DNA of 34,137 nucleotides, taken from assembly GCA_963169055.1 (NCBI GenBank), contig CAUJFU010000254.1:1-34137 (forward strand). Direction: 5' to 3'. Positions within the stretch are counted from its first letter, which is position 1. Each line of letters starts with the position of its first letter. The stretch comes from Myxococcota bacterium. GTDB taxonomy: Bacteria; Myxococcota_C; UBA6777. The translations under genes were made by a program, and so were the position numbers. Below, piece after piece: positions 5,033 through 32,434 of this stretch. Below the pieces are notes generated by a model that saw only the letters and a program-made list of their open reading frames with translations, was not told the DNA's origin and searched no databases.

Positions 5033-7942
5033 TTAGGGCAAGGGGGCGCAGGGCGTAAAATAGGAGGCTTCGAGGGACGGATGTTCGGGGTGGAGAGGAA
5101 GAACGGAAGACAGGGATATCTGGGCAAGGGTGGGATCGAAAGACCATTGGAGGTTTTGCGTTAGAAGAGTCTCGGCGTATTTGAGGGAGAGCGTGCTGAT
5201 GTCGGGTGTTTGGTCAAGATGAAAACGGGTGCGCTGGCCAAGAAAAGCAGCTTTGATCTCGGCGATCCAAGCATTGAGAACGAGCAAGCCACGAGGTTGA
5301 AGCATCGCGCAAAGGTCGAAGGCAAGGCCACTTCCTGCGTGCGTGCTTTCGATGTAGCGCGTTGCAGAGGAGAGTTGTGGGGAACAGGTTTGGGAGGGGA
5401 TCGCCGAAAACAGCAGCCATGGGGGATCATCTTGAGCGGTGGGGAGGTAGCGTTGAATGGAAAAAGTGGAGGCATCGTCTCGGGCCGATACAACGAGCGC
5501 AAGGGCTGGTCGTGCGACACCAAGGCTTTGGATATCGGCATCGCGCAAAGAAGACAGCGTTTTGGAAAGGGACGCCAGTCCTTGGGAACGGACATCGCGA
5601 TCGGTGAGCCAGAGTTGTTCGTGGCTGGTGAGGGCTTGGGGCGCTTCGAGCGAGGCGCGATAAAAGCGCAAGGTGACGCCATCTTGTTTGAGTTGTGAAA
5701 AGAGTTCAATCAGGCGTTGTTTGAGATCAAGCGAGGCAGCAAACGTTTCGATAGAGGGGTCGATATAGACGACCACATGGGCGTCTTGGAGCTTTCGCAT
5801 TGGGTAGGTACGCAGCGCGGGAAGCCCTGAAGAAGCTTGGAGGGTGGATTGCAAAGAAAAGGGCGATCGTTGTGCATCGAAGCCATCGAGTTGAAGGGAT
5901 GCGAAACTGCGAAAGGATTGGAGATTGCCGAGGGAGGGGGGAGTAAAACGCACCCACGCCACAGTGCGGGATTCTTTGGGTTGAAGGGTCAAGGGAAGTG
6001 TGGGCAAGCGCAAAACGAAGTCGTTGGTGGGCGCGTTGGGGAGGGAGATCTGGCGAAGAGTGAGAGGCGAATCGGTAGGATTGGAAAGCAAGAGGGGTGT
6101 CTCGGGAGAAGCACAAGCACGTGTCGCGGCGATGTATTGGCGAGGGGCGATCTGCGGGAGAGGTTGTTGGGTGATCTGGGCCTGCAATTGGACGGCGTAC
6201 GGGTATCCGCCGAGGCCAGAGATACCGCGCAAAAGCAACCACGCTTCATCGCGTCCTTGGAGAGAAGGGGCGGTGTAGACGAAGGTCAGGATATGTTGAT
6301 GGCTTTGTTGTTCAAGCCGAGGGACAGGAGGATAGGTGCGAAACTGGGTTGCGCGGCCTCCAAAAGCCGTGAGGATATCGACTTGTGCGTGGGTGAGGGA
6401 GCGTTTGGCTTCGGAGAGAGTGATCGGCAAAAAAGCGTAGCGGGTATCACTCGGCCCAAGATGCCCGAGCGAAACGACGTCATGGGGGAGGATGACGTTG
6501 GGGGTTCGCAGTTCGGCTCGGAGAGAAAACTTGGCGACAAAAGTATCGGACTGATCGGCCTTTTGGAAGCGAAGCAAGGCTTCGCCTTGGAAAGTTCCGT
6601 AATGGCCGGGCATCCATTGAAATTGAACACGTGCGGTTGCGCCCGAAGCAAGGCGCAAAGGGAGATGTTGAAGGGACGTCAACCAACGTTGGGTTTGATC
6701 GGCGGCAAGCAAGGCTTGAACAGGCGAAGTTCCCGTGATATCGGAAAGGACGACTTCTTGGTCGCATGTGTTGGTGAGATCAACGTCGTACAGTCCCGAA
6801 GGAGTGCCGGGTTGGGGCGGTGGGGTGGTGGGTTCGGTGATCTTGGTTTGGACGCACTGCGAAAGCGGAGCATTTTGGCCGATCACCATGCCCGAGAGCG
6901 GGATCGAAAACAGTTTGCCTTGTCCTTCATGGCGGGCAGAGATGTTGATTTTTGCTTGATAACGCCCGAACATCGGGATCTTTGAGTCCACAGAAAAGCG
7001 CACGATGGCTCGTAGGCTTTCTTGTGGAGCAAGACGAAGAGGCAACGAGGGAAGTCCTTCCAAAGAGAAGGTGTGTTCGGGATCTTGGAGGGAGATCGAT
7101 TCGATCAACAAGGGGCCGAGGCCGGTATTTTGGAGGAGTTCGCGTTCTTGGCGTTGTTCACCAGCGTAAACGATGGTGGGGAATTGGAGGGAAGGCGTGA
7201 GCAGTTTAAGAGAGCCGCCGTTGTCGGGGACACAAAAACCAGCTTCACAGATCTCGTCGTGGGCGCAAGATTGGGCGAAACAAGCGCGTTGGGGTTGGAG
7301 TCGGATGGGTTGATCAAGGCGGATGATCTGGCCGGGCTGTGGGCAGATATCATCGAGGCGGGATGGATGAAACGCGGCGGTTTGGATAGAAAGCGAGTGG
7401 CAAGCCGTTGTATTGTTCGGAAGCAAGGGAGGGATGCCACGCATCCGAAATGTCCCTTGCGTATCGAGAGTAAGGGTGGAGAGAGAAGTCCCCTTGAGAG
7501 CGATCTGGATGTTTTTTGCGCCGAAGCGAGGGGCCGCTTGGACGGTGCCTTCGAGGATCGCAGAAGGCAGCAGCGTGCGCTGCGGAGTATCGAGAGAAAG
7601 GGTATGATCGCGGACGATCCAGAGTTGAAGGCGAAGGCCGAATTCTTCGCCAAGACGAAAAAGGATATCACGTTTGCCCGCAGGGATGGAGGACAACAAA
7701 AAGTCGCCTTGGGCGTCTGTTTTGGCGGTGAGTTGCGGAAGGTTGACGACCTCGATGTGAGCAAAGCGGGCGGGTTCACCGCTCGGCAAGAGCAACGTCC
7801 CATGCAAGTGACCAAGGCCCTCAAAAAAGCGATCGTTGGAGATTGTACCGCAAGCACCAAAGAAAAACAGGGCAAGCGCAAAGAAGATCAGTGTTCCACG
7901 GCGGAACGAAGGGGGTTTGTGTCGGCGAAGATGACGGTGCAT
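5033..7942 (-). CDS. Giant lipoprotein: carboxypeptidase-regulatory-like, Cys-rich, Ig-like and vWA-like parts
   Basis: 969 residues from the ATG at 7942, chosen because AAGGAAG lies just upstream and the protein then opens with MHRHLRR, a hydrophobic segment and a lipobox (FFFGAC-G). The open frame continues 23 codons further upstream without a good ribosome site. After the lipidated Cys come beta-rich segments resembling carboxypeptidase-regulatory domains (HLHGTLLLPSGEPARFAHIEV ... TDAQGDFLLSSIPAGKRD), a small Cys-rich motif (CFAQSCAHDEICEAGFC), then several Ig-like repeats of the HYDIN/choice-of-anchor-D style (alternating SLPLRLAPQES and FSIPLSG-like strands). The C-terminal 200 residues (from DAHVVVYIDPSIETF) look like a degenerate vWA fold. 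Role unknown: a surface-exposed structural or adhesive lipoprotein is inferred. It follows the caspase gene by 99 bp on the same strand. Confidence 0.7.
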   Translation of the reverse strand: MHRHLRRHKPPSFRRGTLIFFALALFFFGACGTISNDRFFEGLGHLHGTLLLPSGEPARFAHIEVVNLPQLTAKTDAQGDFLLSSIPAGKRDILFRLGEEFGLRLQLWIVRDHTLSLDTPQRTLLPSAILEGTVQAAPRFGAKNIQIALKGTSLSTLTLDTQGTFRMRGIPPLLPNNTTACHSLSIQTAAFHPSRLDDICPQPGQIIRLDQPIRLQPQRACFAQSCAHDEICEAGFCVPDNGGSLKLLTPSLQFPTIVYAGEQRQERELLQNTGLGPLLIESISLQDPEHTFSLEGLPSLPLRLAPQESLRAIVRFSVDSKIPMFGRYQAKINISARHEGQGKLFSIPLSGMVIGQNAPLSQCVQTKITEPTTPPPQPGTPSGLYDVDLTNTCDQEVVLSDITGTSPVQALLAADQTQRWLTSLQHLPLRLASGATARVQFQWMPGHYGTFQGEALLRFQKADQSDTFVAKFSLRAELRTPNVILPHDVVSLGHLGPSDTRYAFLPITLSEAKRSLTHAQVDILTAFGGRATQFRTYPPVPRLEQQSHQHILTFVYTAPSLQGRDEAWLLLRGISGLGGYPYAVQLQAQITQQPLPQIAPRQYIAATRACASPETPLLLSNPTDSPLTLRQISLPNAPTNDFVLRLPTLPLTLQPKESRTVAWVRFTPPSLGNLQSFRSFASLQLDGFDAQRSPFSLQSTLQASSGLPALRTYPMRKLQDAHVVVYIDPSIETFAASLDLKQRLIELFSQLKQDGVTLRFYRASLEAPQALTSHEQLWLTDRDVRSQGLASLSKTLSSLRDADIQSLGVARPALALVVSARDDASTFSIQRYLPTAQDDPPWLLFSAIPSQTCSPQLSSATRYIESTHAGSGLAFDLCAMLQPRGLLVLNAWIAEIKAAFLGQRTRFHLDQTPDISTLSLKYAETLLTQNLQWSFDPTLAQISLSSVLPLHPEHPSLEASYFTPCAPLP

Positions 7943-8041
7943 GCTTCTTCCTTCGTTGGCTTCGGTCAATAGGGCTTTTGGCACACGCAACACGGATCGC
8001 GCAACAGCCAAACAGCGGCAGAACAGCCGAGTGCAAAGGGA

Positions 8042-9718
8042 TCAGAAATGCACAAAAACGCCGCCCAAGAACTCATAAGAGCCTTGGTGTCGAGCGGGGC
8101 CGGACTCTGTCGCCACGTACGTGTAGTTGACCCGCCCCTCGGCGAAAAGACTCCATCTTTCTAAAAACAGCGCTTCTGCGCCAAGCACGAAGCCGGGTTG
8201 AAAAGAGAAGAAGAAGTCGTTGATCTGTTTGTGGATATCGGATTGGCGTTCAAGGTAGATCGCACTCAAACGCGGCCCCACAAACAGCGAAAACCATTGA
8301 ATCTTCCACACATAAGTTGCAGCGATGGCCACATTGAATTCGGTGACGGTTTGCGGTCGATTGTCCTGTTCAAGAAGCTTGTGGCTATTGCGGGAGAAGG
8401 CGAATTCAAGGCGAAAATCGATGGGGATATGAGACCAAGGGCGTTGCAGTTTGAGCTCGACACCAAACAGCGGAAGTTCACGCGAGAGGATATCGGCGGA
8501 GGAGCCTTGGAGAAAGAACTGATAGCCCGCCTTGAGTGCGATGGCAAAGCGATAATCGCGGCGTTCAAAAAGCTCTTTGGCGTCCATGCGTTCGCCGTCT
8601 TGAAACACGACCATCCCTTCAAACAGTTTGTGTTCGCCTGTTTTGAGGGTGATCTGCTGTCGGCCCGTTTGAACAGGGATGCCTTTTGGGAAGGTGCCTC
8701 GTGGGATGCCGTTGATCTGGACTTCGACGCCTTGGAAGTGGTTGTCGTAGGCGTATAGAACGGGCTTTCCGTTGCGTTTCTTTTGCCCAGACAAGATGAT
8801 CGGATCGGTGCCAAGGATATCGGATTCTGCGTAGGCCCGTTGTGCGCCTTTGGTGTGAAAGTAGGTCATCTCACGGGCATAATCGTGTGCTTCGGAAACG
8901 GTGACGGCTCCGTCCCCGTTGGCATCGTAGCGGTGTTTGAGAGCTTTGATGAAGTAGTGGGTATAGATATCGTTTTGAAGCTCAGCGGATTCACGGGCCG
9001 TTTCACCAAAAGCGCAGACAGCGAGGAAGATGGTTGCGCGTGAGGAATCCTCGATCGGTTGGGTAAAAAAAGCGCCTTTGATGGTTTTGAGTTCTGCGAG
9101 CATGGTTTGATTGAGGCGACTTTTTCCTGTTCCAGAGTGGCAGGTGGCGAGCAGCATCACTTTGCGCTCACTTTTGAGTTTGGCGAAGTGATGGCGGAGG
9201 CGTGCGATGGAGAGGGCGCTTTTGTGGATATCACGTTGTTGGGTGTCGTAAGTGACGAGATAGCGGCGCAAAGTATGCTGAGGATCACGCGCAAGCGTTC
9301 CATGGCCCGAGATGTACACAAAAAGCGTATCGTGCGGATTGGTGTTCAGTTGGCGCAGGCGTTCAAAGGCGCGCAAGATGCCTTTTCGTGTGGTGGCGGT
9401 GGGATCGGCCAGTAACAGGACTTGATCAAAGCCCCCTGTTTTGGGATTGCGAAGTACGTCGGCGAGATCCGCAGCATCTTTGGCGGCAAAACGCAACGGA
9501 TGCCATGCGCGATCTTGGTAGCGATTCACGCCGATCAAGAGGGCGATCTTTTTTCCTTTTTTGGGCAAAATAGCGGTAGTTTGGAGAGATGCAAGCGGGC
9601 GAAAGCCCTTTTCCGTCGAGACAGCGCGTGAAGATGCACAACCAGCCAACAACAACGCTGACAACAGCGCCATCGGCTTCCCCCAGAAGGCCAAAAAGGT
9701 CATCTGTGGCGGATACAC
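8042..9718 (-). CDS. Caspase-fold (peptidase C14) lipoprotein with C-terminal beta-barrel-like domain
   Basis: 558 residues from GTG at 9718, preferred because GGAG sits six bases upstream; an alternative GTG is at 9730 and an ATG lies five codons further in. A lipobox (ALLLAGC, Cys about 27) predicts lipidation. The caspase-like domain starts at KKIALLIGVNRY and has the catalytic pair: His in FVYISGHGT (about H139) and Cys in VMLLATCHSGT (about C193). An EF-hand-type loop (DANGDGAVTVSE, about 265-276) follows. The last ~170 residues (RDYRFAIALKAGYQF ... FLGGVFVHF) are alternating amphipathic strands ending in Phe, like an outer-membrane beta-barrel. Known bacterial caspase-fold proteins are cysteine proteases specific for basic residues; a surface location is inferred. 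It lies between the DUF4384-like gene and the giant lipoprotein and may have its own promoter. Confidence 0.82.
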   Translation of the reverse strand: MYPPQMTFLAFWGKPMALLSALLLAGCASSRAVSTEKGFRPLASLQTTAILPKKGKKIALLIGVNRYQDRAWHPLRFAAKDAADLADVLRNPKTGGFDQVLLLADPTATTRKGILRAFERLRQLNTNPHDTLFVYISGHGTLARDPQHTLRRYLVTYDTQQRDIHKSALSIARLRHHFAKLKSERKVMLLATCHSGTGKSRLNQTMLAELKTIKGAFFTQPIEDSSRATIFLAVCAFGETARESAELQNDIYTHYFIKALKHRYDANGDGAVTVSEAHDYAREMTYFHTKGAQRAYAESDILGTDPIILSGQKKRNGKPVLYAYDNHFQGVEVQINGIPRGTFPKGIPVQTGRQQITLKTGEHKLFEGMVVFQDGERMDAKELFERRDYRFAIALKAGYQFFLQGSSADILSRELPLFGVELKLQRPWSHIPIDFRLEFAFSRNSHKLLEQDNRPQTVTEFNVAIAATYVWKIQWFSLFVGPRLSAIYLERQSDIHKQINDFFFSFQPGFVLGAEALFLERWSLFAEGRVNYTYVATESGPARHQGSYEFLGGVFVHF

Positions 9719-9762
9719 GGCAAACTCCACAACGCATCAAAAAAACAAACACACAACAAATC

Positions 9763-9846
9763 TTTGCGCAACACATTACAGCACACAGACTTGGATAGTA
9801 CACACCTGAAGGATGATCTTCAAGATCCACAGTGAAGTTGCGCAAA
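9763..9846. promoter_or_regulatory. Long-range inverted repeat in the leader of the caspase gene
   Basis: TTTGCGCAAC (9763-9772) and GTTGCGCAAA (9837-9846) are a perfect 10-bp inverted pair, 64 bp apart. Inside lies a tight palindrome GATCTT-C-AAGATC (about 9815-9827). Each arm is itself nearly palindromic (TTGCGCAA), so two dimeric regulator sites flanking the promoter, or a large stem-loop, are both possible. Confidence 0.45.
9795..9823 (-). promoter_or_regulatory. Candidate sigma-70-like promoter of the caspase-lipoprotein gene
   Basis: Minus strand: TTGAAG (plus 9818-9823), 17-bp spacer, TACTAT (plus 9795-9800), lying between the two TTGCGCAA-type arms and about 77 bp upstream of the GTG start. 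Position and spacing are good; the hexamers are moderate matches. Confidence 0.4.
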
Positions 9847-9889
9847 TCGTTTTGTTTGGTGGGGCGAAGTACCACACTTCTGAGGCGAG

Positions 9890-10876
9890 CTATCCGCGCT
9901 GACGAACAAACAGCGTGATGTGATCGGCGTGTAAGAAAAGCTGACGCAAGGCGGGAGAGAGGGCATTGCGTTCTTGGGGGAAGGTTTGGGGGGTGGATGA
10001 ATGGAGCAGCCAAAAGCGTTGGCGTCCGATCATCTTGGGTTCAAGGACGTAGACCATGGGTTGTTCGGCTTGTTTGAGGGTGATCTTGCCGGGATACTGG
10101 GGGGATGCGCGCTTTGGATCAAAGGGATAAAGAGTTTCAAAACGGCCCAGTGCGTCTTCGCGCAAAAGGTACAAATACCCGCGCCGAAGGTTGACGAAGT
10201 GAAAGAGCAGAGCATCTTCGGGATGGAGGATTGCGTTGTTGCGGAAGGGAAGGGCTTTTTTGGGATCTTGGGCGCGCAGGGCAGCGGGGTAGAGATCAAC
10301 GGCAAAAAAAGCGGCGCGATCGCGATCTCCTTTGTGAAGGATATCGGGAGCAACGGAGCGCGGTGCTGTCGTCGATCTTTCACGCGGCAAGGGCTGGTTG
10401 GAAACAGCACTTGGGGTCTTTGAAGAAAGAAAAGAAGGCGAAGTGGTCGAGAGGATGGGGAAGATCAACAATGCAGCCATGCCCACAGCAAGGGGAGCCA
10501 ACCAAGCGCGGCGGAGGCTTTGCCAAAGATCGCGCAGCAGCGATGGTTTCGAGGGATCAGCCGTTTGCGTACGCGGGTTCGATCGCATTTCGGCCAAAGG
10601 GTCGGCAGGAAGTGGCGAATGGACAGCGGATGTGGAGTGCGAAGAAACAGGCGAAGTCTGCTGCAAGATCGAGCGAAGGATCGCTTCGCTTTCTTGGGCA
10701 TCTAGTTCGAGAGGTTCGTTGGAGGCGTGAAAGGCTTGGAAAGGATCGAAAGCGTCGTCTTCTGTGTGCAAGGCCGCATACAGATCAGGTGCGTGTTGGT
10801 GAGATATCTCGCCGCGATAGATCTGCGCGATCATCTCGGCATCAAGGGCATGGGAAGCGACAGGTGTGGTCTTCAT
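9890..10876 (-). CDS. Single-TM protein with DUF4384-like domain; candidate anti-sigma factor/sensor
   Basis: 328 residues, ATG at 10876. The N-terminal ~110 residues are acidic and predicted cytoplasmic, with no zinc-binding HxxxCxxC anti-sigma motif. One membrane span lies at about 124-144 (AWLAPLAVGMAALLIFPIL). The C-terminal periplasmic half (about 195-295: FHFVNLRRGYLYLLRED ALGRFETLYPFDP) resembles DUF4384, a beta domain known in bacteria to accompany caspase-fold proteins and kinases. Its place 177 bp after an ECF sigma-factor gene, with a cytoplasmic N-terminus, single TM and periplasmic domain, is the usual geometry of a transmembrane anti-sigma factor; this role is inference. It precedes the caspase lipoprotein by 171 bp. 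No strong ribosome site is visible. Confidence 0.65.
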   Translation of the reverse strand: MKTTPVASHALDAEMIAQIYRGEISHQHAPDLYAALHTEDDAFDPFQAFHASNEPLELDAQESEAILRSILQQTSPVSSHSTSAVHSPLPADPLAEMRSNPRTQTADPSKPSLLRDLWQSLRRAWLAPLAVGMAALLIFPILSTTSPSFLSSKTPSAVSNQPLPRERSTTAPRSVAPDILHKGDRDRAAFFAVDLYPAALRAQDPKKALPFRNNAILHPEDALLFHFVNLRRGYLYLLREDALGRFETLYPFDPKRASPQYPGKITLKQAEQPMVYVLEPKMIGRQRFWLLHSSTPQTFPQERNALSPALRQLFLHADHITLFVRQRG

Positions 10877-11013
10877 GTTTTTTCGCTCAAGTCGAGTGTT
10901 TTGTGTTTTCTCGATGTGTTGTCTGCTTGCGCAGGATTTCGTTCAAAAACATACAAAAACAGCAGAAGGCACAACGCTTTTCGAGATAGGAGCGACGCGA
11001 TGGACTCGAAGGC

Positions 11014-11075
11014 AAGAGGCGCTTAAAGCTCCATCAGACGGGCCAAGAGGCGCTTAAAGCTCCATCAGACGGGCC
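11014..11075. repeat. 31-bp tandem duplication of the sigma-factor gene 3' end with stop codon
   Basis: GAGGCGCTTAAAGCTCC begins at 11016 and again at 11047 (period 31), with a third partial core (GGCGCTT) after 11080. The right copy contains the true stop (TAA, 11054-11056 on the minus strand). The left copy encodes the same ending, RLLARLMEL-stop, in a frame shifted by one. Confidence 0.85.
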
Positions 11076-11659
11076 AAAAGGCGCTTGCGTATACGATTGC
11101 GAAAACGATCAAGGCGCGTTGTCACGGTGCTTTTGGGGATATCGAGACGTTGCGCGATATCCGAAGTACTCAATCCTTCTATATAAAAGAAGCGTACACA
11201 ATCTTTCATTCCACCGTTCGGAAGATCGTCGATGATCTGGTGAACCAAAGCGATCTGACGCTCTGTCTCGATCTGCTCCAAGTTATCTGGCACAGAAAAA
11301 AGTTCCGTTTCGAGACTCCACGCCGAATGTTTTTTGCCAAAGTTTTCCTCTTTGCTGAGGTGGCTTAAACAACGGTTGCGTGTGATGGTCAACAGCCACG
11401 AAAGAAACTTTTGCCCTTCACGCAACTTATCGAGGTGACGAAACGCCCGAACAAAGGACTCTTGCAAGATATCCTTCGCGATGTCTCGATCGATCCCACC
11501 GAAGGTCTGACAGAAACGATAGACCGTCGAATAATACTTCCGATAGAGGGCCATAAACGCTTGCTCATCACCGGACTTTGCCTTCGCAAGCAGCGTCTTT
11601 TCATCGTGACCTTGCAATCCTTGCTCCTCAAGACTCGCACACACCCAAAGCGGTCTCAC
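11054..11659 (-). CDS. ECF-type sigma-70 family RNA polymerase sigma factor
   Basis: 201 residues from GTG at 11659; TTG at 11617, with AGGAG seven bases upstream, is an equally plausible start giving 187 residues. Region 2 is clear: DEQAFMALYRKYYSTVYRFC ... DIAKDILQESFVRAFRHLDKL ... FLSWLLTITRNRCLSHLSKE. Region 4 helix-turn-helix follows (LSTSDIAQRLDIPKSTVTTRLDRFRNRIRKRL). There is no region 1.1 or 3, as expected for ECF sigma factors that direct polymerase to stress or envelope-response promoters. It heads a same-strand run: DUF4384-like membrane protein, caspase lipoprotein, giant lipoprotein. Both ends of the gene are embedded in tandem duplications. Confidence 0.9.
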   Translation of the reverse strand: MRPLWVCASLEEQGLQGHDEKTLLAKAKSGDEQAFMALYRKYYSTVYRFCQTFGGIDRDIAKDILQESFVRAFRHLDKLREGQKFLSWLLTITRNRCLSHLSKEENFGKKHSAWSLETELFSVPDNLEQIETERQIALVHQIIDDLPNGGMKDCVRFFYIEGLSTSDIAQRLDIPKSTVTTRLDRFRNRIRKRLLARLMEL

Positions 11660-14658: not shown

Positions 14659-17649
14659 ATGCGTTGTGAAGCTTGTGGTCATGAAAATCCCAAACAAAGC
14701 CGCTTTTGTGTTCAATGTGGCCGATTGTCGGACGCGAGTTGGCTGACTCCTGCACCCGCAAGTGTGCCGTCGAACGCATCGCAAAAAGGACTGCGCAGCA
14801 GTCTGGGAGATTCATGGGGAGGCTACGCACTGATCGAGATGTTGGGCGAAGGGGAGATGGGGCGGGTTTATCGTGCGAAGCGACACACGGATCAACAAGA
14901 ATTCGCGCTCAAGATGTTACCGCCCTTGCGGGAAGGCGATATCGCTGCAAGGCGATTGCTGCGACGAGAAGGAGAGATCCTCGCCCGATTGGTGCATCCG
15001 TCGATCGTGCGATTTGATGGCTTTGTGGAAGAAGAGGGCCGTTTCGCCCTTGTGATGGAGCTTTTGCGTGGACCGACTCTTCAAGCCAAACTCTTAGAAG
15101 GCCCGTTGGCTCCTGATATCACGTTGTCTTTGTTGTTGGATATCCTTGAAGCCTTGGATCATGCCCATCGACAGGGCGTGATCCACCGCGATCTCAAACC
15201 CAGCAATCTGTTTTTGGTCGAAACCCGACAAAGCAAAGCCCACGACCCGATCTTGCACGTCAAGATCGGCGGTTTTGGTGTCGCACGAATGCGCTTTGAA
15301 CAGCTTTCCTCAACGTTGGGGCAGCACGTTGGCGAAGCCGTTACCGTCCAGTACTTGGCCCCCGAACAGCTCGAAGATATCAGCGCCGTTGACGCCCGCA
15401 GCGATCTGTACGCGCTTGGGGTGATCGCTTACGAAACCCTCGTCGGCGAACGCATGATCGACGGGATCGCTCACCTTCACATCATCCAACAGATCCTCCG
15501 TGATCCTCGCCCCCCCCTACACCGAGGACTCCTTGATCGCCTTCCTTCGGGCTTTGATGATTGGCACCAAACCCTCCTCGCCAAAGACCCGAACGACCGC
15601 TTCCCCAACGCCCAAAAAGCACGTGACGCCCTGCTGTCTCTCCTCCGTCATCCATCCCCATCGCTCGAACGTTCCGCTCCCTCCCCTAGCCCTTCTCACC
15701 CTCGCAACTCATCGCCCTCTCCCGACTCTTCTCACCCTCGCAACCCATCGCCCTCTCCCGACTCTTCTCATTCTCCCGATCCATCGCGGCTTTCCGACTC
15801 TTCTCTCTTTCCCGATCCATCGCGACTTTCCGACTCTTCTCTCTTTCCCGATCCATCCGACTTTTTTCATCCATCAAAAGCCCCTGCTCCACAAAACTTG
15901 ATGGAGCCGTTGATCGCGCCGAGCGCACACACCAAACATCCCGCATCTCACGGAACTGCCGACTTTAACCGCGATGCACTCAAACAAGAACTCCACCAAG
16001 CCGCTTCGCTTGCCCCTACTTCCGCCTTTGACGAATCCCCCTCAGGTCTCCCACCCGAAGCCGTCTTCGCAGGGGCCGCCCATCCCCCTGCAACAGCCCC
16101 ACTCCGACACGCCTCAACAGGTACTCCCATCGGCCTAGCGCGCCCTCATACGCCACGTTCGGCCCCTCCCGCGCCCCACCAAGGAACCTCCGACTTTGAT
16201 CGCGATGCCTACCTCTCCTATCAACAAGCCATCCTCCAAGCCTCACCCGCTCCAGAACCTTTGGCCTTCGCACCTTCCACAAACGCCGCACCTTCCGCAC
16301 CCTCCACAAACGCCGCACCTTCCGCACCTTCCACAAACTCACCTTCCATCGCATCAACGCCCATCCCACCGAGCCTTTCGACACCCTCTACAGAGCCACC
16401 GTTGCCCAAATCCGCGAAAGCCCACCACCCTCCCCCTTCCTCGCTCGCCGATCTTGCCCAAGTCCTCGACGACTTTCCCACACTCCCCGACGATGATGAT
16501 CGCGTCGCTCGATTTCGTGCCGGAATCCTCTCAGGAACGTACCCTGCGCACGCTCTCGCTTCTTCCCAAGAACTCGCTGTTTCCGAACTGTCCGATTCTT
16601 CGGTCGATCCTTCGCTGCTTCACGAAGACGTTGCTTTTGCGCTCGGGGCCTCACCCTCTACCAGCAAATGGCGGTGGAGCTGGATACTGCTGTTGTTCGC
16701 CATCGCTTCGGCTCTTGGGTGGGCTTACTACAGCGGTCGCGCACAGCACTTGATCGAATACTGGATCTCACCCGAACCATCGAGTTCTTCGCTCTCCGCA
16801 ACTCCTGCCCTCCCCCGCTCCGCCCAACCTTCAAAACGTGCCTCTGCGCCTCGCCATCGCCCTTCTCCACGAAGAAAAATTCGCCCACGAGCGCGTCGAA
16901 CACAACCGCTTTCCCGATCTGCTGTTTCGCTCCGCTCTTCTCCACCCACACAATCCCTTGCACCGCCTTCACAACCCTTGCGCCTTCCGCCCGATCTCAA
17001 GGCCATGCGCCGCGTCCCCAAAGGCTGGTTTCCCTACGGTGGCCTTGGTAGCCCTGTTCCGATCCAATGGCGGCGTCTTCCGACGTTTTGGATCGACCGC
17101 TACGAAGTGACATGGCGCGATTACGCCACTTGTGTCAGCGCAGGCATTTGCCAGACTTTGGCAGCTTCCCAAAAGACGGGCTTTTCAGCACCCATGCAAC
17201 CCGTTGTGTCCGTCACATGGGAAGAAGCCGCCACATATTGCCGCTTTCGCAACAAGCGCCTACCTTCCTCTCTCGAATGGGAAAAAGCTGCGCGTGGCTT
17301 TGAAGGACAGATCTTTCCTTTCTCGGGCACGTCTCCAGATTGCACACGCGCTGTCTTTGGCAGCCCCAAAGGACGCAAGCGAACCTGCCCCCGTCCACCC
17401 AAAACTGCGACTGTTGGCTCCAAACCCTCGGATCGCAGCCCTTTTGGAGTGTTTGATCTCGCGGGCAACGTTCGCGAATGGACTCGCGATTGCGCCTCCG
17501 AGACCACCGCCGATCAGGCTTGTTCCCACCGCGAAGCCCGTGGGGGTAGCTGGTCCTCTCAACCCGCTGAACTCCTCGCCGCCCGAAGATGGGCCTTTTC
17601 TGCTTCTTCGCGCCGCTTGGATCTCGGCTTTCGATGCGTTTGGCCCTGA
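14659..17649 (+). CDS. Zinc-ribbon kinase-like protein (DFG to GFG) with periplasmic FGE/SUMF1-like domain
   Basis: 996 residues, ATG at 14659. Zinc ribbon C3, C6, C17, C20; kinase fold about 55-330 with Gly-loop GEGEMGRV (63-70), K85 and HRDLKPSN (D178). The metal-binding DFG Asp is Gly205 (codon GGT, 15271-15273; context HVKIGGFGVAR), so the domain may be a pseudokinase or poorly active. A Ser/Pro/Ala-rich linker (about 335-665) contains 36-bp and 27-bp tandem repeats. One membrane span lies at about 672-692 (WSWILLLFAIASALGWAYY), followed by a basic Pro-rich stretch. The C-terminal domain (about 780-996) is of the formylglycine-generating-enzyme fold (FWIDRYEVTWRDYATCV ... RLPSSLEWEKAARG ... 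GVFDLAGNVREWTRD ... RGGSW ... LDLGFRCV), but the catalytic cysteines expected shortly after RGGSW are absent, so a binding role is inferred. Confidence 0.88.
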   Translation: MRCEACGHENPKQSRFCVQCGRLSDASWLTPAPASVPSNASQKGLRSSLGDSWGGYALIEMLGEGEMGRVYRAKRHTDQQEFALKMLPPLREGDIAARRLLRREGEILARLVHPSIVRFDGFVEEEGRFALVMELLRGPTLQAKLLEGPLAPDITLSLLLDILEALDHAHRQGVIHRDLKPSNLFLVETRQSKAHDPILHVKIGGFGVARMRFEQLSSTLGQHVGEAVTVQYLAPEQLEDISAVDARSDLYALGVIAYETLVGERMIDGIAHLHIIQQILRDPRPPLHRGLLDRLPSGFDDWHQTLLAKDPNDRFPNAQKARDALLSLLRHPSPSLERSAPSPSPSHPRNSSPSPDSSHPRNPSPSPDSSHSPDPSRLSDSSLFPDPSRLSDSSLFPDPSDFFHPSKAPAPQNLMEPLIAPSAHTKHPASHGTADFNRDALKQELHQAASLAPTSAFDESPSGLPPEAVFAGAAHPPATAPLRHASTGTPIGLARPHTPRSAPPAPHQGTSDFDRDAYLSYQQAILQASPAPEPLAFAPSTNAAPSAPSTNAAPSAPSTNSPSIASTPIPPSLSTPSTEPPLPKSAKAHHPPPSSLADLAQVLDDFPTLPDDDDRVARFRAGILSGTYPAHALASSQELAVSELSDSSVDPSLLHEDVAFALGASPSTSKWRWSWILLLFAIASALGWAYYSGRAQHLIEYWISPEPSSSSLSATPALPRSAQPSKRASAPRHRPSPRRKIRPRARRTQPLSRSAVSLRSSPPTQSLAPPSQPLRLPPDLKAMRRVPKGWFPYGGLGSPVPIQWRRLPTFWIDRYEVTWRDYATCVSAGICQTLAASQKTGFSAPMQPVVSVTWEEAATYCRFRNKRLPSSLEWEKAARGFEGQIFPFSGTSPDCTRAVFGSPKGRKRTCPRPPKTATVGSKPSDRSPFGVFDLAGNVREWTRDCASETTADQACSHREARGGSWSSQPAELLAARRWAFSASSRRLDLGFRCVWP
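15692..15860. repeat. 36-bp coding tandem repeats in the kinase linker
   Basis: Two consecutive families of 12-residue units: SHPRNPSPSPDS-like (copies starting 15692, 15728 and, diverged, 15764), then LFPDPSRLSDSS-like units. Frame is kept. They encode a disordered Ser/Pro linker. Confidence 0.8.
16270..16350. repeat. 27-bp coding tandem repeat in the kinase linker
   Basis: Units at 16270-16296, 16297-16323 and a partial 16324-16350 encode APSTNAAPS-type nonapeptides. They lie in the same disordered linker as the 36-bp repeats. Confidence 0.8.
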
Positions 17650-17735: not shown

Positions 17736-20700
17736 TTGCGAAACATACTGCGCTTTTCTTGGCTGAATCTTCTTGGTTTTTTCCTCTTTTGCGGGGGGAC
17801 TCTTCCTCGCGCAGATGCCGAAGACGACTGGCAGATCAAGCGCGGTGATCGCGCCTCCGTCCTGATCAAACGCTGGACAGAAATCCTCCAAAACGAACCC
17901 TACTCCCCAAAAGCCTTTCACGAACTCTTGCGCCTCCACAAACAGACCCCTGCCCGCCGCGCCCTCTACGCCCAATGGAAGGCCCGCTATCAGCGCTCTC
18001 CCCAGACCCTCTCTGCCGCCATCGTCTACGCTCGCGCCCTTGAACGCCAAGGGCAACACGCCGATGCCTTGCGACTTTGGACCGATATCGCCAACCGTTC
18101 CACCCAAAAACAACCGCCCCTACTCCGTATCGCCTCCATCCATCTCGCGCAAAAACGCCCCCGCGAGGCCATGACCACCTTCCAACAACTCCTCCCCCTC
18201 GTCCCCGAAAACAACCGCCCTAAGCTGCTTTTGCGTATCTTAGAAGTCTCTCTCCAAGCCCGTGACGCCGCTTCTTTGGCATGGGTACAACCCCAAATCG
18301 CCAAGCTCACTTGGTCCGCCTCGCAACAACACGGACTCGCCCAACTTTACGAACAGCACCAGTATTGGGCCGATGCAAGCGCGATCCTCCGCCCTCTCTA
18401 CGAAAAATCCGCATCCGCCGAACGTCTGCGCCTCGCCCTTCGCCTCAGCCGCATCGAAATGAACCAACAACGCTACACCCAAGCCCTTCAACTCATCCAA
18501 GAAGCCCGTAAAATCGGCACTCTCCATGACTGGATGCGTTGGGAGCTCCTCGAACGCGAAGCCGAGATATTCCGACACCAAAAAGATCTCCCCACCCTCA
18601 CCGAACGCCTCGCCAAAACATGGAAACGTTCCAAAGATCCTCGCGAACTCTTGTTTCTTGCCCGACTCTACCGCGAAAACAAACAAGAGGCCGATGCCAT
18701 CGAGATCGCGAAACGCGTCCTTCGCATCAAACCCTCTCTACGTGAACCCCGCCTATGGCTCGTCGAACACCTCTCCAAAGAACAAGACTTCTCCGCCGCC
18801 AACGAACACATCCAAGCCCTCGTCAAGTACGGACACGCCCGCCCTTCGCACATGCTCCAACTCGCCGATAGCTTCCTCCGAAGCTCTGGCCGTCCCCTCA
18901 AAGGCCGCTGGACTCCCATCCATCTCTTCCAATCTTCTTCCTCTAGCTACGCGTCTTATCGAAGACACCTCTATTATCGCAGACGCTACGCCCCACCGCC
19001 CACCCCAACAACCGATGTCTGGTCCGCCCTCTCCATCCGAAACAGCATCCTCCGATGGGACGCACAACGCCGCCAAGAATGGACGATGTGGGCACGTTAT
19101 GCCACACAACAAGCCCGCAAAGACTACAACCAAGCCAAAAAACTCCTCGAACAAACCCTCCAACGCTACCCCAAAGATTGGGACACCTTGTTCAAGATCG
19201 AACAAACCGCCGATCAGATGGGCGCTTCCGCACTCGCCACCAAAGCCCGCCGCGCACTCGAACGCACCACCGATGCCGATCCCATGCAACTCAAACAAAT
19301 GCACATCCTCTTTCTTCAAACCCAACACGAAGAAAAGATCGCCTCTCTCGCCAAACGCGCCCTCACTCCGCCCCTCGCCCCCAAACAAGCCATCCTCGCC
19401 GCTGCTTGGGCTCTCCGCCCTTGGGACGAACTGCGCGGCTCTTACCAAAAAATGACCCGCTACGCCCAAACCAACCCACAAAAACAATGGCAACGCCAGA
19501 TCTGCCCCGCGATCAAACGCATCCTTCAACTCGACAAAACCGCTAAAATGCGTGGACTTGTCGACTCCCTTCGCCCTGTTTTGCGCCTCCAGATCTACGC
19601 CCTGCGCTGGCATTGCGGTGAACGCAACCAAACCACCCGCGAACATCTTCAACGCGCCGAAGATGCCCTGCTCCTTGAAAGCGACGGCTCTCAAAAACTC
19701 CTCGAAACCTACGTCCGTTCCCGCCTCGATCAGCCCCTACGCACCTATCTCCAACGCCGAAAACTCGCCGAAAACCCCCGCGAGATGATCGAGATGTTCC
19801 GACCCCTCCTCCAAAGCCCTTGGGCCAAACAAGCCACCGACGCCCTCTTCTCCGCCTTTTCTGGCGAACATACCGAGGCTCACCAACAAGCCCGCGCCGA
19901 AGCCCTCTTGATGCTCTGCCAACAACGCGCACATTGCACCCACACCGCCGATGCCATCGACTCTTTGGTTCAACATCCTCCCAAACCCATCACCCCGCTC
20001 CTTCAAATCATCGAACGCACCGCCTCTTACCAACTCTTCCCCAAAGAACGCGCCTCTTGGCTCACCAAGATCCAACTCCACCACCATGACGACCTCCCCG
20101 TCCAATACTTCCTCGCCACACAAAAAAATCTCTTCACCCTCCAATACACCGGCCTCATCCCTTATCGCGAGATCCAAACCATCCGCGAAGCACTCTCCAA
20201 AGTCTGGACCCAATCCGTGATCCAATCCCTCGCCCTGCGCGAGATCGAACCCGCTGACCTCCCCCTCTGGCGCACCTCCCTCCACCAAATGCTCTATCAA
20301 CTCCAATCCTTCCACAAAGAACGCGACCTCCTCTTCTCTCAACTCCTCCAAGCCTCCAAACGCTTCCCCTCCATCTACCGCACCCTTATCTCCCAAGCCG
20401 TCGGCATCTACGCTTACCGCCTCTCCCTCCAAAAAATCGCACCCGAACTCTTGTCCCAACCCTTCCAATGGGAAGACCTCCCTTGGATCGAACAGATCTA
20501 CAGCGCCCTCGCTCCTACCCACCGCAATCAACTCCTCCAAAAGATCCTCCAATCCCCCAAAAACTACGAAACCCTCCGCCTCTTTGCCTATCTCTCCGAA
20601 AAATACAACCAAACCGACCTCCTCCTGCGCATCCTTGAACTCATGCTCCTCCAACAACCCGAACAAACACCGCTCCTCCACAAAACCGCCCTCCTGCTCG

Positions 20701-22517
20701 AACGTTTGGGACACCCTGACCGCGCCGAAACCCTCTGGATGCGCTACATTCAACAACAACCCAACAAACGCACGCCCGCTTATCTCGAACAACTCTCCAA
20801 ACGCTGCTGCGTCGATACCAACGACCGCGCTTTCGCTCGACGCATCCTCCATCTCTCCATCGCCACCAACGGGCTAGAGGCCGTCTGGTCCCCTTTCCAG
20901 CGCCTTCTCCCACAACTCGATCCCTCCCACCAACAAACTCTGATCCTCTACATCGCCAACACACCCAACCTCCCCCCACAAACCCTCCAACAACTCGCTG
21001 ATCTCACGCAAAAAAAAGGCTTCCACCAAGCCGCTCTCCCCCTCTACCTCCGCCTCCAACAAGCCTCCCCCCGCGATCCCGCTCTCCACCAGCGCGTCGC
21101 CGCCCTCTACGATGCCCAAGGACAACACAAATCCGCTCACCACCATTGGCTCCAAAGCCTCTCCGCACTCGACCCCCCCAAACGCGAAGCCTTCTTCCTC
21201 CAACAAGCCGCCCAATACTCCCAAAAATCCAACCCGCAACTCGCCGCCATCTCCTACGCCCGCGCCTACCAAACCCAACCCGCCTTTGAACCCGACGCCC
21301 TGCGCGAACGCATCGCGGCTCTGCTCAAAAATCAAAAACACCTCCAAGCATGGGGATATTGGCTCCTACTCTCCGATCATGCCGACCGTTGCTTGAATCC
21401 CACTCCCCACCCAAACTTTCTACACTCCCCTCTCCCCGCACAACTCTGGCAAACCAACGTTCCCTACACCGGCCCACTCTTCTCTTTCCCCCGCTGCCAC
21501 TGGATGATCACCCACCCCACCCAACAACGCATCCTCAACCAGATCGCCGACTCCCTCAAACAAGCCCCCCAACAAAAGATCTCCCTACGCGCTGGCTCCG
21601 AACCCAACGAACCCGACGCCTCTTTCCTCACCCAACAACGCCTCCACACCCTCCAACACAACTTGCTCCAACTCGGCGTCAAACCCGAACAGATCGAGAT
21701 CTCCCCCCTCCCTTCCCAACCCCTCTGCCGCACCGACGACCACCTGATCAAAGAACACGGTATCTCCTGTGCCGCCTTCCAACGACAAGCCGCCCTCGGA
21801 CAAGATATCCCCAACTACCTCCAATTCCTCTCCCGCGACGCCGACGAAGATCAAATCCCCGATATCCTTGACCTTTGCCCCCTCCAGCACAAAGCAGGTG
21901 CCAGTTACCGACCCGCTCTCCCCGTCTCTCGCTCCCGAACCATCGGCCTCCATGCGGCTCGACCCACCGCCCCCACCGACAATGGCTGCCCACCCACCGC
22001 ACAATCCCCCCTCTCCTTCAACAAGATCCTACCCGACGGCACTCTCCAAATGCTCCGCCCTTTCCTCTTTACAGGCTACAGCTACCACGTCCCCCACAAC
22101 CAACGCGATATCCTCGGACAACTCACCGCCTTGCTACGCGCCGCACCTTCCCTCGGCAACCTCACCGTCGAGCTCACTCCCGTTATCCCCGCCCACACCG
22201 CCCCCAACCCCAATCCCTCTTCCCACAGCCGCTACTACGGACGCTACGGACGTTATAGCCGTTATCCACGCTATGGAAGACCTTCTTACTCCTACACACC
22301 CAGCTACGCCCGCGACCCCAAACGCCTCGCTCAGCTTCGCCTCCATTCCATCGGACAGATCTTTCGCTACTACAAAGCCCCCATGTCCCGCATCCGCCTC
22401 GTCTCCAACTCTCCCCTCAAACAAGCTGGTGCCACTCCCTACACTCCCCCCAAGATCCTCTTTCGCTTTGATTCCTCTCCGCCCCAGACCACCCCCAACA
22501 CCTCAAATCCCCTTTGA
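17736..22517 (+). CDS. Very large exported TPR protein with degenerate OmpA-like C-terminus
   Basis: 1593 residues from TTG at 17736, supported by AGGG seven bases upstream and by the signal peptide that follows (RNILRFSWLNLLGFFLFCGGTLPRADA). About residues 40-1220 are helical TPR-like repeats (for example YARALERQGQHADALRLWTDIA, LLRIASIHLAQKRPREAMTTF), rich in Gln, Leu and Arg. The end has an OmpA-like segment (about 1250-1328), a calcium-type thrombospondin-3 motif (DADEDQIPDILDLCP, about 1368-1382) and a second OmpA-like segment (about 1425-1568). The latter is interrupted by a Tyr/Arg/Gly insert (SRYYGRYGRYSRYPRYGR, about 1497-1515). Another Tyr/Arg-rich loop lies at about 400-420. OmpA-like domains usually bind peptidoglycan, so periplasmic assembly of an envelope complex is inferred. 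It follows the kinase-like gene by 86 bp, possibly in one operon. Confidence 0.8.
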   Translation: MRNILRFSWLNLLGFFLFCGGTLPRADAEDDWQIKRGDRASVLIKRWTEILQNEPYSPKAFHELLRLHKQTPARRALYAQWKARYQRSPQTLSAAIVYARALERQGQHADALRLWTDIANRSTQKQPPLLRIASIHLAQKRPREAMTTFQQLLPLVPENNRPKLLLRILEVSLQARDAASLAWVQPQIAKLTWSASQQHGLAQLYEQHQYWADASAILRPLYEKSASAERLRLALRLSRIEMNQQRYTQALQLIQEARKIGTLHDWMRWELLEREAEIFRHQKDLPTLTERLAKTWKRSKDPRELLFLARLYRENKQEADAIEIAKRVLRIKPSLREPRLWLVEHLSKEQDFSAANEHIQALVKYGHARPSHMLQLADSFLRSSGRPLKGRWTPIHLFQSSSSSYASYRRHLYYRRRYAPPPTPTTDVWSALSIRNSILRWDAQRRQEWTMWARYATQQARKDYNQAKKLLEQTLQRYPKDWDTLFKIEQTADQMGASALATKARRALERTTDADPMQLKQMHILFLQTQHEEKIASLAKRALTPPLAPKQAILAAAWALRPWDELRGSYQKMTRYAQTNPQKQWQRQICPAIKRILQLDKTAKMRGLVDSLRPVLRLQIYALRWHCGERNQTTREHLQRAEDALLLESDGSQKLLETYVRSRLDQPLRTYLQRRKLAENPREMIEMFRPLLQSPWAKQATDALFSAFSGEHTEAHQQARAEALLMLCQQRAHCTHTADAIDSLVQHPPKPITPLLQIIERTASYQLFPKERASWLTKIQLHHHDDLPVQYFLATQKNLFTLQYTGLIPYREIQTIREALSKVWTQSVIQSLALREIEPADLPLWRTSLHQMLYQLQSFHKERDLLFSQLLQASKRFPSIYRTLISQAVGIYAYRLSLQKIAPELLSQPFQWEDLPWIEQIYSALAPTHRNQLLQKILQSPKNYETLRLFAYLSEKYNQTDLLLRILELMLLQQPEQTPLLHKTALLLERLGHPDRAETLWMRYIQQQPNKRTPAYLEQLSKRCCVDTNDRAFARRILHLSIATNGLEAVWSPFQRLLPQLDPSHQQTLILYIANTPNLPPQTLQQLADLTQKKGFHQAALPLYLRLQQASPRDPALHQRVAALYDAQGQHKSAHHHWLQSLSALDPPKREAFFLQQAAQYSQKSNPQLAAISYARAYQTQPAFEPDALRERIAALLKNQKHLQAWGYWLLLSDHADRCLNPTPHPNFLHSPLPAQLWQTNVPYTGPLFSFPRCHWMITHPTQQRILNQIADSLKQAPQQKISLRAGSEPNEPDASFLTQQRLHTLQHNLLQLGVKPEQIEISPLPSQPLCRTDDHLIKEHGISCAAFQRQAALGQDIPNYLQFLSRDADEDQIPDILDLCPLQHKAGASYRPALPVSRSRTIGLHAARPTAPTDNGCPPTAQSPLSFNKILPDGTLQMLRPFLFTGYSYHVPHNQRDILGQLTALLRAAPSLGNLTVELTPVIPAHTAPNPNPSSHSRYYGRYGRYSRYPRYGRPSYSYTPSYARDPKRLAQLRLHSIGQIFRYYKAPMSRIRLVSNSPLKQAGATPYTPPKILFRFDSSPPQTTPNTSNPL

Positions 22518-30087: not shown

Positions 30088-30211
30088 TGTGGGGCACTGC
30101 CCCACACCCCGCAAGGGAACTTCGTCCCCTTGACCCCCGTGTTGGCGAAGAGAGCACTGTTTTTCAAACCAACAGCTTTGTCGCTTGAGCGCTTGCGAAC
30201 ACGGGGTTTTT
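30088..30211 (-). repeat. Structured dispersed repeat, copy A (inverted relative to copy B)
   Basis: About 124 bp, reverse-complementary over its whole length to 32456-32577, with some substitutions. It contains hairpins TGTGGGGC/GCCCCACA (30088-30106) and a CAAGGGRAC-type stem (about 30113-30132), plus a 9-bp pair CCCCGTGTT (30135-30143) with AACACGGGG (30198-30206) bracketing a 54-bp core. It lies just past the ThDP-enzyme stop and before the fused SDR gene. Confidence 0.8.
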
Positions 30212-30295
30212 CAGCGAACTGCTCCTTTTCTATCCGCACAAATCCCCCACGCTCCGTCGTCTCCCAAACCACCTATAACCCTTGAGAGAACGAAG

Positions 30296-32434
30296 ATGCC
30301 GAACAAAAACCTGTCCACAGCAGATGGATCGATAGAGTCCCACGCTTCGCAAAGCACGGAAAACGACCAGCGGGAGTTTCGCGCTTCGCAAAATACGGAA
30401 GGAAGACAAGAAGAGTCTAAAGCAGGCAGTTCAACGGAGTCTCACGCTTCGCAAATCACGGAAAATAGGGAAGGAAGACAAGAAGAACCTACCGCAGACG
30501 GTTTAAAGGAGTCTTGCGATCCGCAAAGCACCGAGCAGCGGAGCGCGTTGTTGATTACAGGTGCGGGCGGATACATCGGTCGTTTGCTCTTGCGTGCGTT
30601 GGCAAAAGAGCCGGGTGGATTCCACACGATCGTTGCGATGGATATCCGAATTCCTGATCCGCCCGAACGCATCGACGGTATCACCTACCTTCAACAAGAT
30701 ATCCGAGATCCTTCGATCGAGGGGGTATTTGCGCGATACAAGATCGATACGCTCGTTCACCTCGCTTCGATCGTGACTCCGCCCAAAGGCATGGATCGCG
30801 CCTTTCAATACGCGGTAGATGTCGAAGGCACAAAACATATCGTTCGCGCTTTTCTTGCCCACCAAGGAAAAAAACTGATCGTCACAAGCAGCGGTGCGGC
30901 TTATGGCTATCACCCCGACAATCCTCCCCTACTCACCGAGGATTGCACGCTGCGTGGAAATCAAGTCTTCGCCTATTCGGATCACAAGCGGCTTGTGGAA
31001 GAGTATCTCGCGCAAGTGCGCGCACAATCCCCTCAACTTCGACAGCTAATCTTGCGCCCCGGAACCATCCTTGGCGCGTCCGTTTCCAACCAGATCACCG
31101 ATATCTTTGAAAAGCCGATCATCACGGGTCTCAAAGGCTCCACCGTCCCCTTCCAATTTGTCTGGGATCAAGACGTCGTGCAGGCCCTGCTGCTCGGCAT
31201 CCATACCCCGAAAACAGGCATCTACAATCTGATCGGTGATGGCATCCTCACTCTGCGCGAGATCGCAACGCTGCTTCAAAAACCCTATGTTGCGATCCCT
31301 CCTGCTCTGCTCGAACGATCGCTCTCTCACCTCAAGCGATGGAACCTGACGCAGTACGGGCCAGAACAGATCTTGTTTCTCAAACATCGCCCTGTCCTCT
31401 CCAACGAACGACTCAAACGCGATTTCGGCTACACCCCCCAAAAAACATCCCGCGAAGTCTTCTTCCTCTACCTCCAAAGCAAAAAAAGCACATCCCCCCA
31501 TCTTCCCGCTGCATCGGCCTCTTCGTCAAAGAACTCTACTTCTTCCGCTGCATCGGCCTCTTCGTCAAAACAACACGCATCTTCCGCTGCATCGGCCTCT
31601 TCGTCAAAACAACACGCACCTTTCGCTGCATCGGCCTCAAAAGTTATCGTGATCACGGGTGCAGCGGGAGGAATTGGACGGGCGCTTGCCTTGCGTTTTG
31701 GGCAGCCGAACCACTGTCTCGCTCTGCTTGATATCGACGAGACGGGCTTGATCGAAACAAGCCGGTGGGTCGCTGAACAAGGAAGCGAAGTGCTCACCTA
31801 TCCTTGCGACATCCGCGATCTGTCGGCTTGTCAACGCACCTTTGACGCGATCATCGGGCATTGGGGGCACATCGATATCCTAATCAACAACGCAGGGATC
31901 ACCCACCGCAGCCTACTCTCCGAAACACGCGCCGAAGTCCTTCACCGCGTGATGGATGTCAACTTCTTTGGGGCCGTTCATTGCACACAGTGCGCGCTCC
32001 CAAGCCTAAAGGCCCGCAAAGGAACCATTGCGACGATATCGAGTATCGCGGGCTTTGCTCCCCTTGTCGGGCGCACAGGGTACGCCGCAAGCAAGCACGC
32101 ACTCCACGGATTCTTCGACTCCTTGCGTGCTGAACTCGAAGGTGCTGGTGTCCACGTCCTCTTGGTCTGTCCCTCCTTCACCCAAACCGCTATCGAACAA
32201 AACGCCCTCTCAGGAAACGGCCAACGCACACAAAGTAAGATCCGCGAAACCATCGGACAGATCGCCTCCCCCGAGCAACTCGCCGACGCCATCGCCCTCG
32301 CCATCGAACAACGACAAGATCTGCTTCTTCCCTCCGCCCTCTCGAAGATGTCCTACCTGCTTTCCCGCATCGCCCCCCCGCTTTACACCCGCATCATGCG
32401 CGCCAAACAGGGCAAAGAATTCGGGCTCTCTTGA
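30296..32434 (+). CDS. Fusion of an extended NAD-dependent epimerase/dehydratase-like SDR and a classical SDR
   Basis: 712 residues from ATG at 30296 (GAGAGA upstream); the frame is open 37 codons earlier inside repeat copy A without support. Residues 1-80 are a polar, low-complexity stretch with a repeating ASQ-x-TE motif. Module 1 (about 84-395) is an extended SDR: TGAGGYIG Rossmann motif, DIRDPSIEGVF, HLASIVTPP, VTSSGAAYG, and catalytic Y227-K231 in FAYSDHK. A Ser/Ala linker (about 400-448) is built of 13-residue repeats. Module 2 (about 449-712) is a classical SDR: TGAAGGIGRAL, ILINNAG, SSIAG, and catalytic Y596-K600 in GYAASKHAL. Both active sites look complete, so it probably carries out two NAD(P)-linked steps on a sugar, lipid or polyketide-like substrate (inference). 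Inverted repeat copies flank the gene. Confidence 0.9.
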   Translation: MPNKNLSTADGSIESHASQSTENDQREFRASQNTEGRQEESKAGSSTESHASQITENREGRQEEPTADGLKESCDPQSTEQRSALLITGAGGYIGRLLLRALAKEPGGFHTIVAMDIRIPDPPERIDGITYLQQDIRDPSIEGVFARYKIDTLVHLASIVTPPKGMDRAFQYAVDVEGTKHIVRAFLAHQGKKLIVTSSGAAYGYHPDNPPLLTEDCTLRGNQVFAYSDHKRLVEEYLAQVRAQSPQLRQLILRPGTILGASVSNQITDIFEKPIITGLKGSTVPFQFVWDQDVVQALLLGIHTPKTGIYNLIGDGILTLREIATLLQKPYVAIPPALLERSLSHLKRWNLTQYGPEQILFLKHRPVLSNERLKRDFGYTPQKTSREVFFLYLQSKKSTSPHLPAASASSSKNSTSSAASASSSKQHASSAASASSSKQHAPFAASASKVIVITGAAGGIGRALALRFGQPNHCLALLDIDETGLIETSRWVAEQGSEVLTYPCDIRDLSACQRTFDAIIGHWGHIDILINNAGITHRSLLSETRAEVLHRVMDVNFFGAVHCTQCALPSLKARKGTIATISSIAGFAPLVGRTGYAASKHALHGFFDSLRAELEGAGVHVLLVCPSFTQTAIEQNALSGNGQRTQSKIRETIGQIASPEQLADAIALAIEQRQDLLLPSALSKMSYLLSRIAPPLYTRIMRAKQGKEFGLS
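31508..31639. repeat. 39-bp tandem repeat encoding the inter-SDR linker
   Basis: Units at 31508, 31547 and 31586 (39 bp each) and a partial one at 31625, sharing GCTGCATCGGCCTCTTCGTC. They encode AASASSSKQHASS-type 13-residue repeats, in frame. The last two full copies are almost identical, so the expansion is recent. Confidence 0.9.

Follow-up and report, generated by a model that had tools for sequence, protein, structure and literature searches.

Caspase homologues are widespread in bacteria and, to our knowledge, nearly all of them lack known substrates or roles. The described systems closest to the locus analyzed here are the sigma-70/metacaspase operons of Myxococcus xanthus, Anaeromyxobacter, Haliangium, and Sorangium, in which, within the same lineage, a caspase homologue shares an operon with a sigma-70-type factor. 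Such a factor is present in the operons of four of the five M. xanthus metacaspases, and the same structure occurs in other genera (Asplund-Samuelsson et al., 2012, PMC3501461). Our locus lies on contig CAUJFU010000254.1 of a Myxococcota bacterium (GCA_963169055.1, lineage UBA6777), analyzed over 34,137 nucleotides (the window), where four genes in one direction on the minus strand, from 11658 to 5033, encode an extracytoplasmic function (ECF) sigma factor, a single-pass membrane protein, a caspase lipoprotein, and a large lipoprotein. We hypothesize that the four genes form one operon and a self-contained envelope signalling switch, in which the caspase would make the site-1 cut in an anti-sigma factor and the sigma factor would autoregulate the operon, an explanation that we hold, as a whole, to have slightly better than even chances. 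The operon section of the 2012 paper (PMC3501461) names sigma factors only, with no anti-sigma factor, barrel, lipoprotein, cut site, or promoter, and our literature search found no description of the anti-sigma factor, barrel, cut site, or lipoprotein. A sequence-only reading of this DNA had put forward a candidate undescribed system; this appears to hold for these parts and not for the sigma-caspase association, which has been known since 2012. What appears to be new is the membrane inhibitor, together with its likely cut site and the outer-membrane barrel.

The proposed model resembles the E. coli sigma-E pathway (RseA/DegS/RseP) in its ECF sigma factor, single-pass anti-sigma factor, and periplasmic site-1 proteolysis. 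The protease of that pathway is an inner-membrane PDZ serine protease, whereas here it would be a caspase with a predicted outer-membrane anchor, encoded in the operon, for which cleavage is proposed only. Craspase (Csx29/Csx30/CASP-sigma, type III-E CRISPR) provides a precedent for a caspase-fold protease able to free an ECF sigma factor, and shares with our model the inhibitor of an ECF sigma factor and sigma motifs at its own locus (PMC10028731). Craspase differs in being cytoplasmic, with an RNA-activated CHAT protease and a soluble inhibitor, and the likeness is drawn from its published description. EACC1 pairs a caspase with a one-transmembrane partner and EACC2 places an ECF sigma factor near a caspase; the parts of the papers that deal with these systems describe no outer-membrane barrel or lipoprotein, unlike what we see here (Kaur et al., PMC7159879, PMC8195603). 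Our locus also differs from EACC1 at the level of families: the window caspase scores 96.5 bits against the EACC1-associated caspase family NF047832 (cut-off 140), the window's membrane partner has no EACC1 match, and no EACC1 domain is found among the Pfam matches of 44 membrane partners. CHAT proteins near ECF54 have been mentioned in a review, and DUF4384, caspase, and sigma factor were combined nowhere in the literature searched, which did not extend to the 2021 ECF re-classification (Nucleic Acids Research).

The gene-neighbourhood comparison that the sequence-only reading had called for bears out its grouping of four same-strand open reading frames, as the linkage is conserved both in the window's family and across Myxococcota. 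Six-frame profile searches yielded 67 distinct caspase loci (E < 1e-90) that span many genera and several families, some of them closely related and thus not independent. A sigma factor lies upstream on the same strand in 56 of the 57 loci with more than 1.5 kb of upstream sequence, the membrane protein lies in between, next to the caspase, in 63 of 67, and a protein that resembles the large lipoprotein's N-terminal part follows in 52 of 67. All five genomes of the window's family keep the gene order, which is also kept across Myxococcota: the caspase orthologue has the other genes alongside in each of the four other family genomes and, more distantly, in Myxococcaceae and other Myxococcota. 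M. xanthus itself carries the operon, presumably as one of the metacaspase operons reported in 2012 (PMC3501461). Using the preferred starts, the gaps between the window genes are about 177, 159, and 99 bases; their Citreicoccus inhibens equivalents are a few bases apart and then overlap by 1 base. The flanks vary: the block lies beside groESL in the window's family and beside a serC-like gene in Myxococcaceae (judged from the N-terminal sequence only), and other genes flank it elsewhere. Because the block spans many genera while its flanking genes change, we conclude that selection maintains the linkage, rather than its being a remnant. Among 44 more distant caspases from the same scan, some with little upstream DNA, a sigma factor could be recognised within 2 kb on the same strand in none.

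The caspase lipoprotein (8042-9730, 562 aa; minus strand, as are all features of the locus) contains a caspase domain (8822-9553) that matches Peptidase_C14 with 53 bits (cut-off 21.4) and holds the catalytic dyad His143 (9302-9304) and Cys197 (9140-9142); the family signature is C[HY]SGxGKS. Both residues and the lipobox Cys31 are invariant across seven aligned orthologues, in agreement with the lipidated caspase-fold protease first suggested. The AlphaFold2 (AF2) model (pLDDT 73) has a caspase fold, a beta region in the middle and, at residues 394-561, eight strands that run antiparallel. In Foldseek searches the caspase domain matches the MALT1 paracaspase (E 1.7e-9, TMt 0.74), and the C-terminal tail matches NspA (TMt 0.74) and OmpA (0.69), and also OmpW and OmpX. 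What had been described as a barrel-like tail is predicted to be an 8-stranded outer-membrane beta-barrel (8045-8551), with the even number of antiparallel strands and the C-terminal aromatic residue of such proteins, here the Phe that also ends the protein in 61 of the 67 caspase loci. Even-stranded outer-membrane proteins have a topology that places the N-terminal domain in the periplasm, and since the predicted strand number is even, we place the protease domain there: a periplasmic caspase domain is more likely than the surface caspase proposed earlier. By sequence the domain also aligns with the yeast metacaspase Yca1, and Asp85 falls on the conserved Asp of its 'GCINDAHN' motif, which we take to be an S1-pocket position. 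Metacaspases cleave after Arg or Lys, and paracaspases after Arg (PMC8283722).

The membrane protein (9890-10876, 328 aa), with one transmembrane helix by hydropathy (residues ~124-142, 10451-10507), is a putative anti-sigma factor. Its AF2 model consists of N-terminal helices (residues 13-20, 26-37, and 60-74), which fall in a cytoplasmic region at the position of an anti-sigma domain (10652-10843), a disordered linker, and a highly confident C-terminal beta domain on the periplasmic side (9902-10309, pLDDT mostly >93) that has weak Foldseek matches to immunoglobulin (Ig)-like and RhoGDI-type beta sandwiches. Describing this domain as DUF4384-like was a fair hint, as 9 of 44 relatives match DUF4384 (PF14326) at E<=0.05 (best 5e-12); we rejected DUF4384 as a family label for the window protein, which scores 13.9 bits, under the curated cut-off of 27. 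Near the N terminus, 53 of 60 relatives carry H-x4-C-x2-C, close to the Hx3Cx2C signature of zinc class I anti-sigma factors (PMC7406223), and 4 of 44 match zf-HC2. Together with the conserved linkage, this motif supports the idea that the sigma factor and its transmembrane partner are a signalling pair. The window protein and its four family orthologues lack the motif in either spacing (H-x3/4-C-x2-C), so that the window's family has lost the zinc ligands; class I anti-sigma factors without zinc exist (PMC7406223).

When 44 membrane proteins are aligned, most of them only about 20% identical to that of the window, the near-invariant columns are Met1, Leu36, and the pair Lys182-Gly183 (10328-10333), which lies in the periplasmic linker. 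The basic position is Lys or Arg in all 44 proteins and the next is Gly in 42, and the rest of the linker is poorly conserved and modelled as disordered. The pair usually lies 10-20 residues past the membrane helix on the periplasmic side (39 in the window protein). Among 27 representatives of less than 45% mutual identity, [KR]G occurs 5-25 residues past the helix in 21, compared with 5.6 expected by shuffling (maximum 13 in 2000 shuffles), and in a comparison set of single-transmembrane zf-HC2 proteins from four Myxococcaceae genomes it follows the helix in 4 of 21. This conservation makes it plausible that the pair is the site at which the caspase cuts.

The sigma factor (11054-11617, 187 aa from a TTG start) matches Sigma70_r2 (57.1 bits) and Sigma70_r4_2 (28.7 bits), both above cut-off, and NCBIfam sigma70-ECF (83 bits, cut-off 42.9); with sigma2 and sigma4 and without sigma3, it is an ECF sigma factor, as had been called. 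In a sister genome, the sigma gene begins with TTG at the equivalent of window position 11617, and we therefore judge that translation probably starts there and that the annotated extension to GTG 11659 (201 aa) is probably not translated. The 5' end of the GTG-annotated frame overlaps a candidate autoregulatory ECF promoter, TGAGACC-N16-GAGTCTTG (11629-11658). The pattern TGAGACC-N15..17-GAGTCNTG occurs once per genome in five of five family genomes, always directly upstream of the sigma gene, and a reversed-pattern control gives 0 sites. One family locus (L045) has an in-frame stop ahead of the sigma start codon, so that the element there is not coding. A similar element, GTGGCC-N16-GGGTC, stands ahead of the Myxococcaceae sigma gene: GTGGCC-N15..17-GGGTCTGGAGG occurs once per genome in five out of six genomes, in four of which the site is in front of the sigma gene, and in one genome (G213) such a site lies on a contig other than that of its caspase locus. 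Loosening the family pattern to GAGACC-N15..17-GAGTC gives 8 to 20 sites per genome versus 3 to 22 in the reversed control, not clearly above it, and so does not support claiming a wider regulon. Ahead of the sigma genes, generic ECF promoter patterns were no more frequent, or only modestly more frequent, than in shuffled sequence, and only the family-specific element stood out among the patterns tried. We infer from the element that the operon may drive itself. At the other end of the sigma gene, positions 11021-11078 of the window hold a tandem duplication of about 30-36 bases (repeated gcgcttaaagctccatcagacgggcca) that extends over the gene's 3' end into the bases immediately following it.

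We propose the following model. The membrane protein would act as a divergent class I-type anti-sigma factor that holds the ECF sigma factor inactive, with its Ig-like C-terminal domain in the periplasm. The caspase would be exported and lipidated, and its C-terminal 8-stranded barrel would anchor it in the outer membrane with the protease domain directed toward the periplasm. Upon an envelope or ligand signal, possibly received by the barrel or the large lipoprotein, the caspase would cut the linker of the anti-sigma factor at site 1, after the conserved Lys/Arg of the Lys-Gly pair, and general intramembrane and cytoplasmic proteases would finish the release. M50 proteases (site-2 type) are encoded in the window's genome, as they are in nearly every genome. 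The freed sigma factor would then transcribe its own operon from the conserved promoter, yielding more caspase and more lipoprotein. Proteolysis-triggered envelope signalling, which had been suggested for this locus, gains support from the linkage, the zinc motif of the relatives, and the conserved basic-Gly pair in the periplasmic linker. The operon supplies one bacterial caspase with candidates for its substrate, cut site, and promoter, and M. xanthus offers a host that is amenable to genetics; the membrane inhibitor, cut site, and barrel are testable in Myxococcus. If the model is correct, caspases would serve as non-lethal signalling proteases, used for gene regulation across the bacterial envelope in parallel to DegS/RseA and Craspase.

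Several observations weigh against this model. An Asp two residues before the catalytic Cys aids binding of a basic P1 residue in metacaspases and MALT1; this position is Ala in the window caspase (LATCHSG), and specificity for Arg or Lys is thus not assured. With its zinc ligands lost, the window protein is an anti-sigma factor by orthology only, and the Lys-Gly pair could be structural. A Silvanigrellales contig (L097) is the single exception to the upstream sigma factor on the same strand, as its caspase gene is transcribed divergently from those of the sigma factor and membrane protein, and the large lipoprotein is not recognisable in many more distant families. We nevertheless prefer the caspase as site-1 protease because this best accounts for the Lys/Arg-Gly pair, for the topology that is predicted, and for an anti-sigma factor and caspase that are almost always paired. 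The fuller claim, a barrel-anchored outer-membrane caspase that is a dedicated site-1 protease cutting after Lys/Arg-Gly within a self-inducing operon widespread in myxobacteria, we put forward tentatively and at somewhat less than even odds.

The main rival is that another protease or a ligand switches the sigma/anti-sigma pair, so that the regulon would have the caspase and lipoproteins among its outputs, acting for example in self-lysis, fruiting-body death, or prey-directed proteolysis. Effector genes are common in sigma-factor operons, M. xanthus metacaspases have been suggested to act in developmental lysis (Asplund-Samuelsson et al., 2012, PMC3501461), and the downstream genes vary as outputs often do, with a PKD/Ig lipoprotein and a phosphatidylinositol phospholipase C (PI-PLC)-like protein in Citreicoccus and a beta-propeller protein in another locus (L096). 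However, this leaves unexplained the linker Lys/Arg-Gly of the caspase-linked anti-sigma factors and their near-obligate pairing with the caspase, and in the window's family the promoter-like element occurs nowhere but at the operon; we consider this rival unlikely, yet deserving of serious weight. Less probable still, and improbable in our view, is that the periplasmic Ig-like domain holds the caspase, whose release or titration would alter the conformation of the anti-sigma factor while the caspase acts elsewhere, with the Lys-Gly pair as part of a docking surface. DUF4384 often accompanies C14 caspases, which together with the DUF4384 matches among 9 of the 44 partners and the position of Lys-Gly next to the start of the folded domain speaks for docking; the pair nevertheless lies in the low-confidence linker, outside that domain. 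Finally, an accidental neighbourhood, or one hitch-hiking with groESL without joint function, could be read from the block following groESL in the window's family, but it is contradicted by the comparative data, as other families retain the block between different flanks and similar trios recur elsewhere in the same genomes, and we regard it as very improbable.

The fourth gene encodes the large lipoprotein (5033-7942, 969 aa from ATG 7942, lipobox FGAC), which has orthologues of 26-29% identity at the same place in three other genomes. CarboxypepD_reg is found in all five orthologues of the family and Ig-like ASH/HYDIN/Cep192 domains in two to four of the five; a choice-of-anchor D match (33 bits) falls below its cut-off of 45. 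The predicted length, the lipoprotein call, and the Ig-like part of this protein were confirmed, and the von Willebrand factor A (vWA) domain was rejected: no VWA family matches at E<=0.01 in the five orthologues, only D and E are invariant in the region of the metal ion-dependent adhesion site motif (MIDAS, DxSxS), and there is no useful PDB match. None of the tests run supports the adhesive, contact, or predation role once suggested; our guess is that the protein binds a ligand or senses at the outer membrane. In Citreicoccus, a 358-residue CarboxypepD_reg lipoprotein stands in its slot, and after it come a 925-residue PKD/Ig lipoprotein and the PI-PLC-like protein; the last (PF16670, L075:12584-14179) lies immediately after the operon in C. 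inhibens.

Trios of sigma factor, one-transmembrane protein, and caspase recur elsewhere in the window's genome and in relatives (L048, L049, L050 with two, L051, and L054-L060); several of the partners are above the DUF4384 cut-off, and these trios form an expanded set of parallel systems. The window's genome has five other caspases with a sigma-type neighbour, and two more at contig ends. An anti-phage defence role was considered and rejected, as PADLOC matched the caspase only to a general caspase model and gave marginal CARF matches to the helix-turn-helix of the sigma factor, and an Rfam scan found no RNA elements. In three family loci, a protein of about 190 residues with an N-terminal hydrophobic stretch lies between groEL and the sigma gene (L043:4826-5377, L044:6011-6574, and L045:9421-10011); it is missing in the window's genus. 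A record titled Comamonas sp. KCTC 72670 (BNCN01000006.1, L091) carries a Myxococcaceae-type operon with its flanks and is probably misnamed or contaminated. Elsewhere in the window, a 996-aa protein kinase fused to an FGE-sulfatase-type domain adjoins groES (14659-17649), and a 1593-residue TPR protein (17736-22517) and an Epimerase-SDR fusion (30185-32434) are also encoded.

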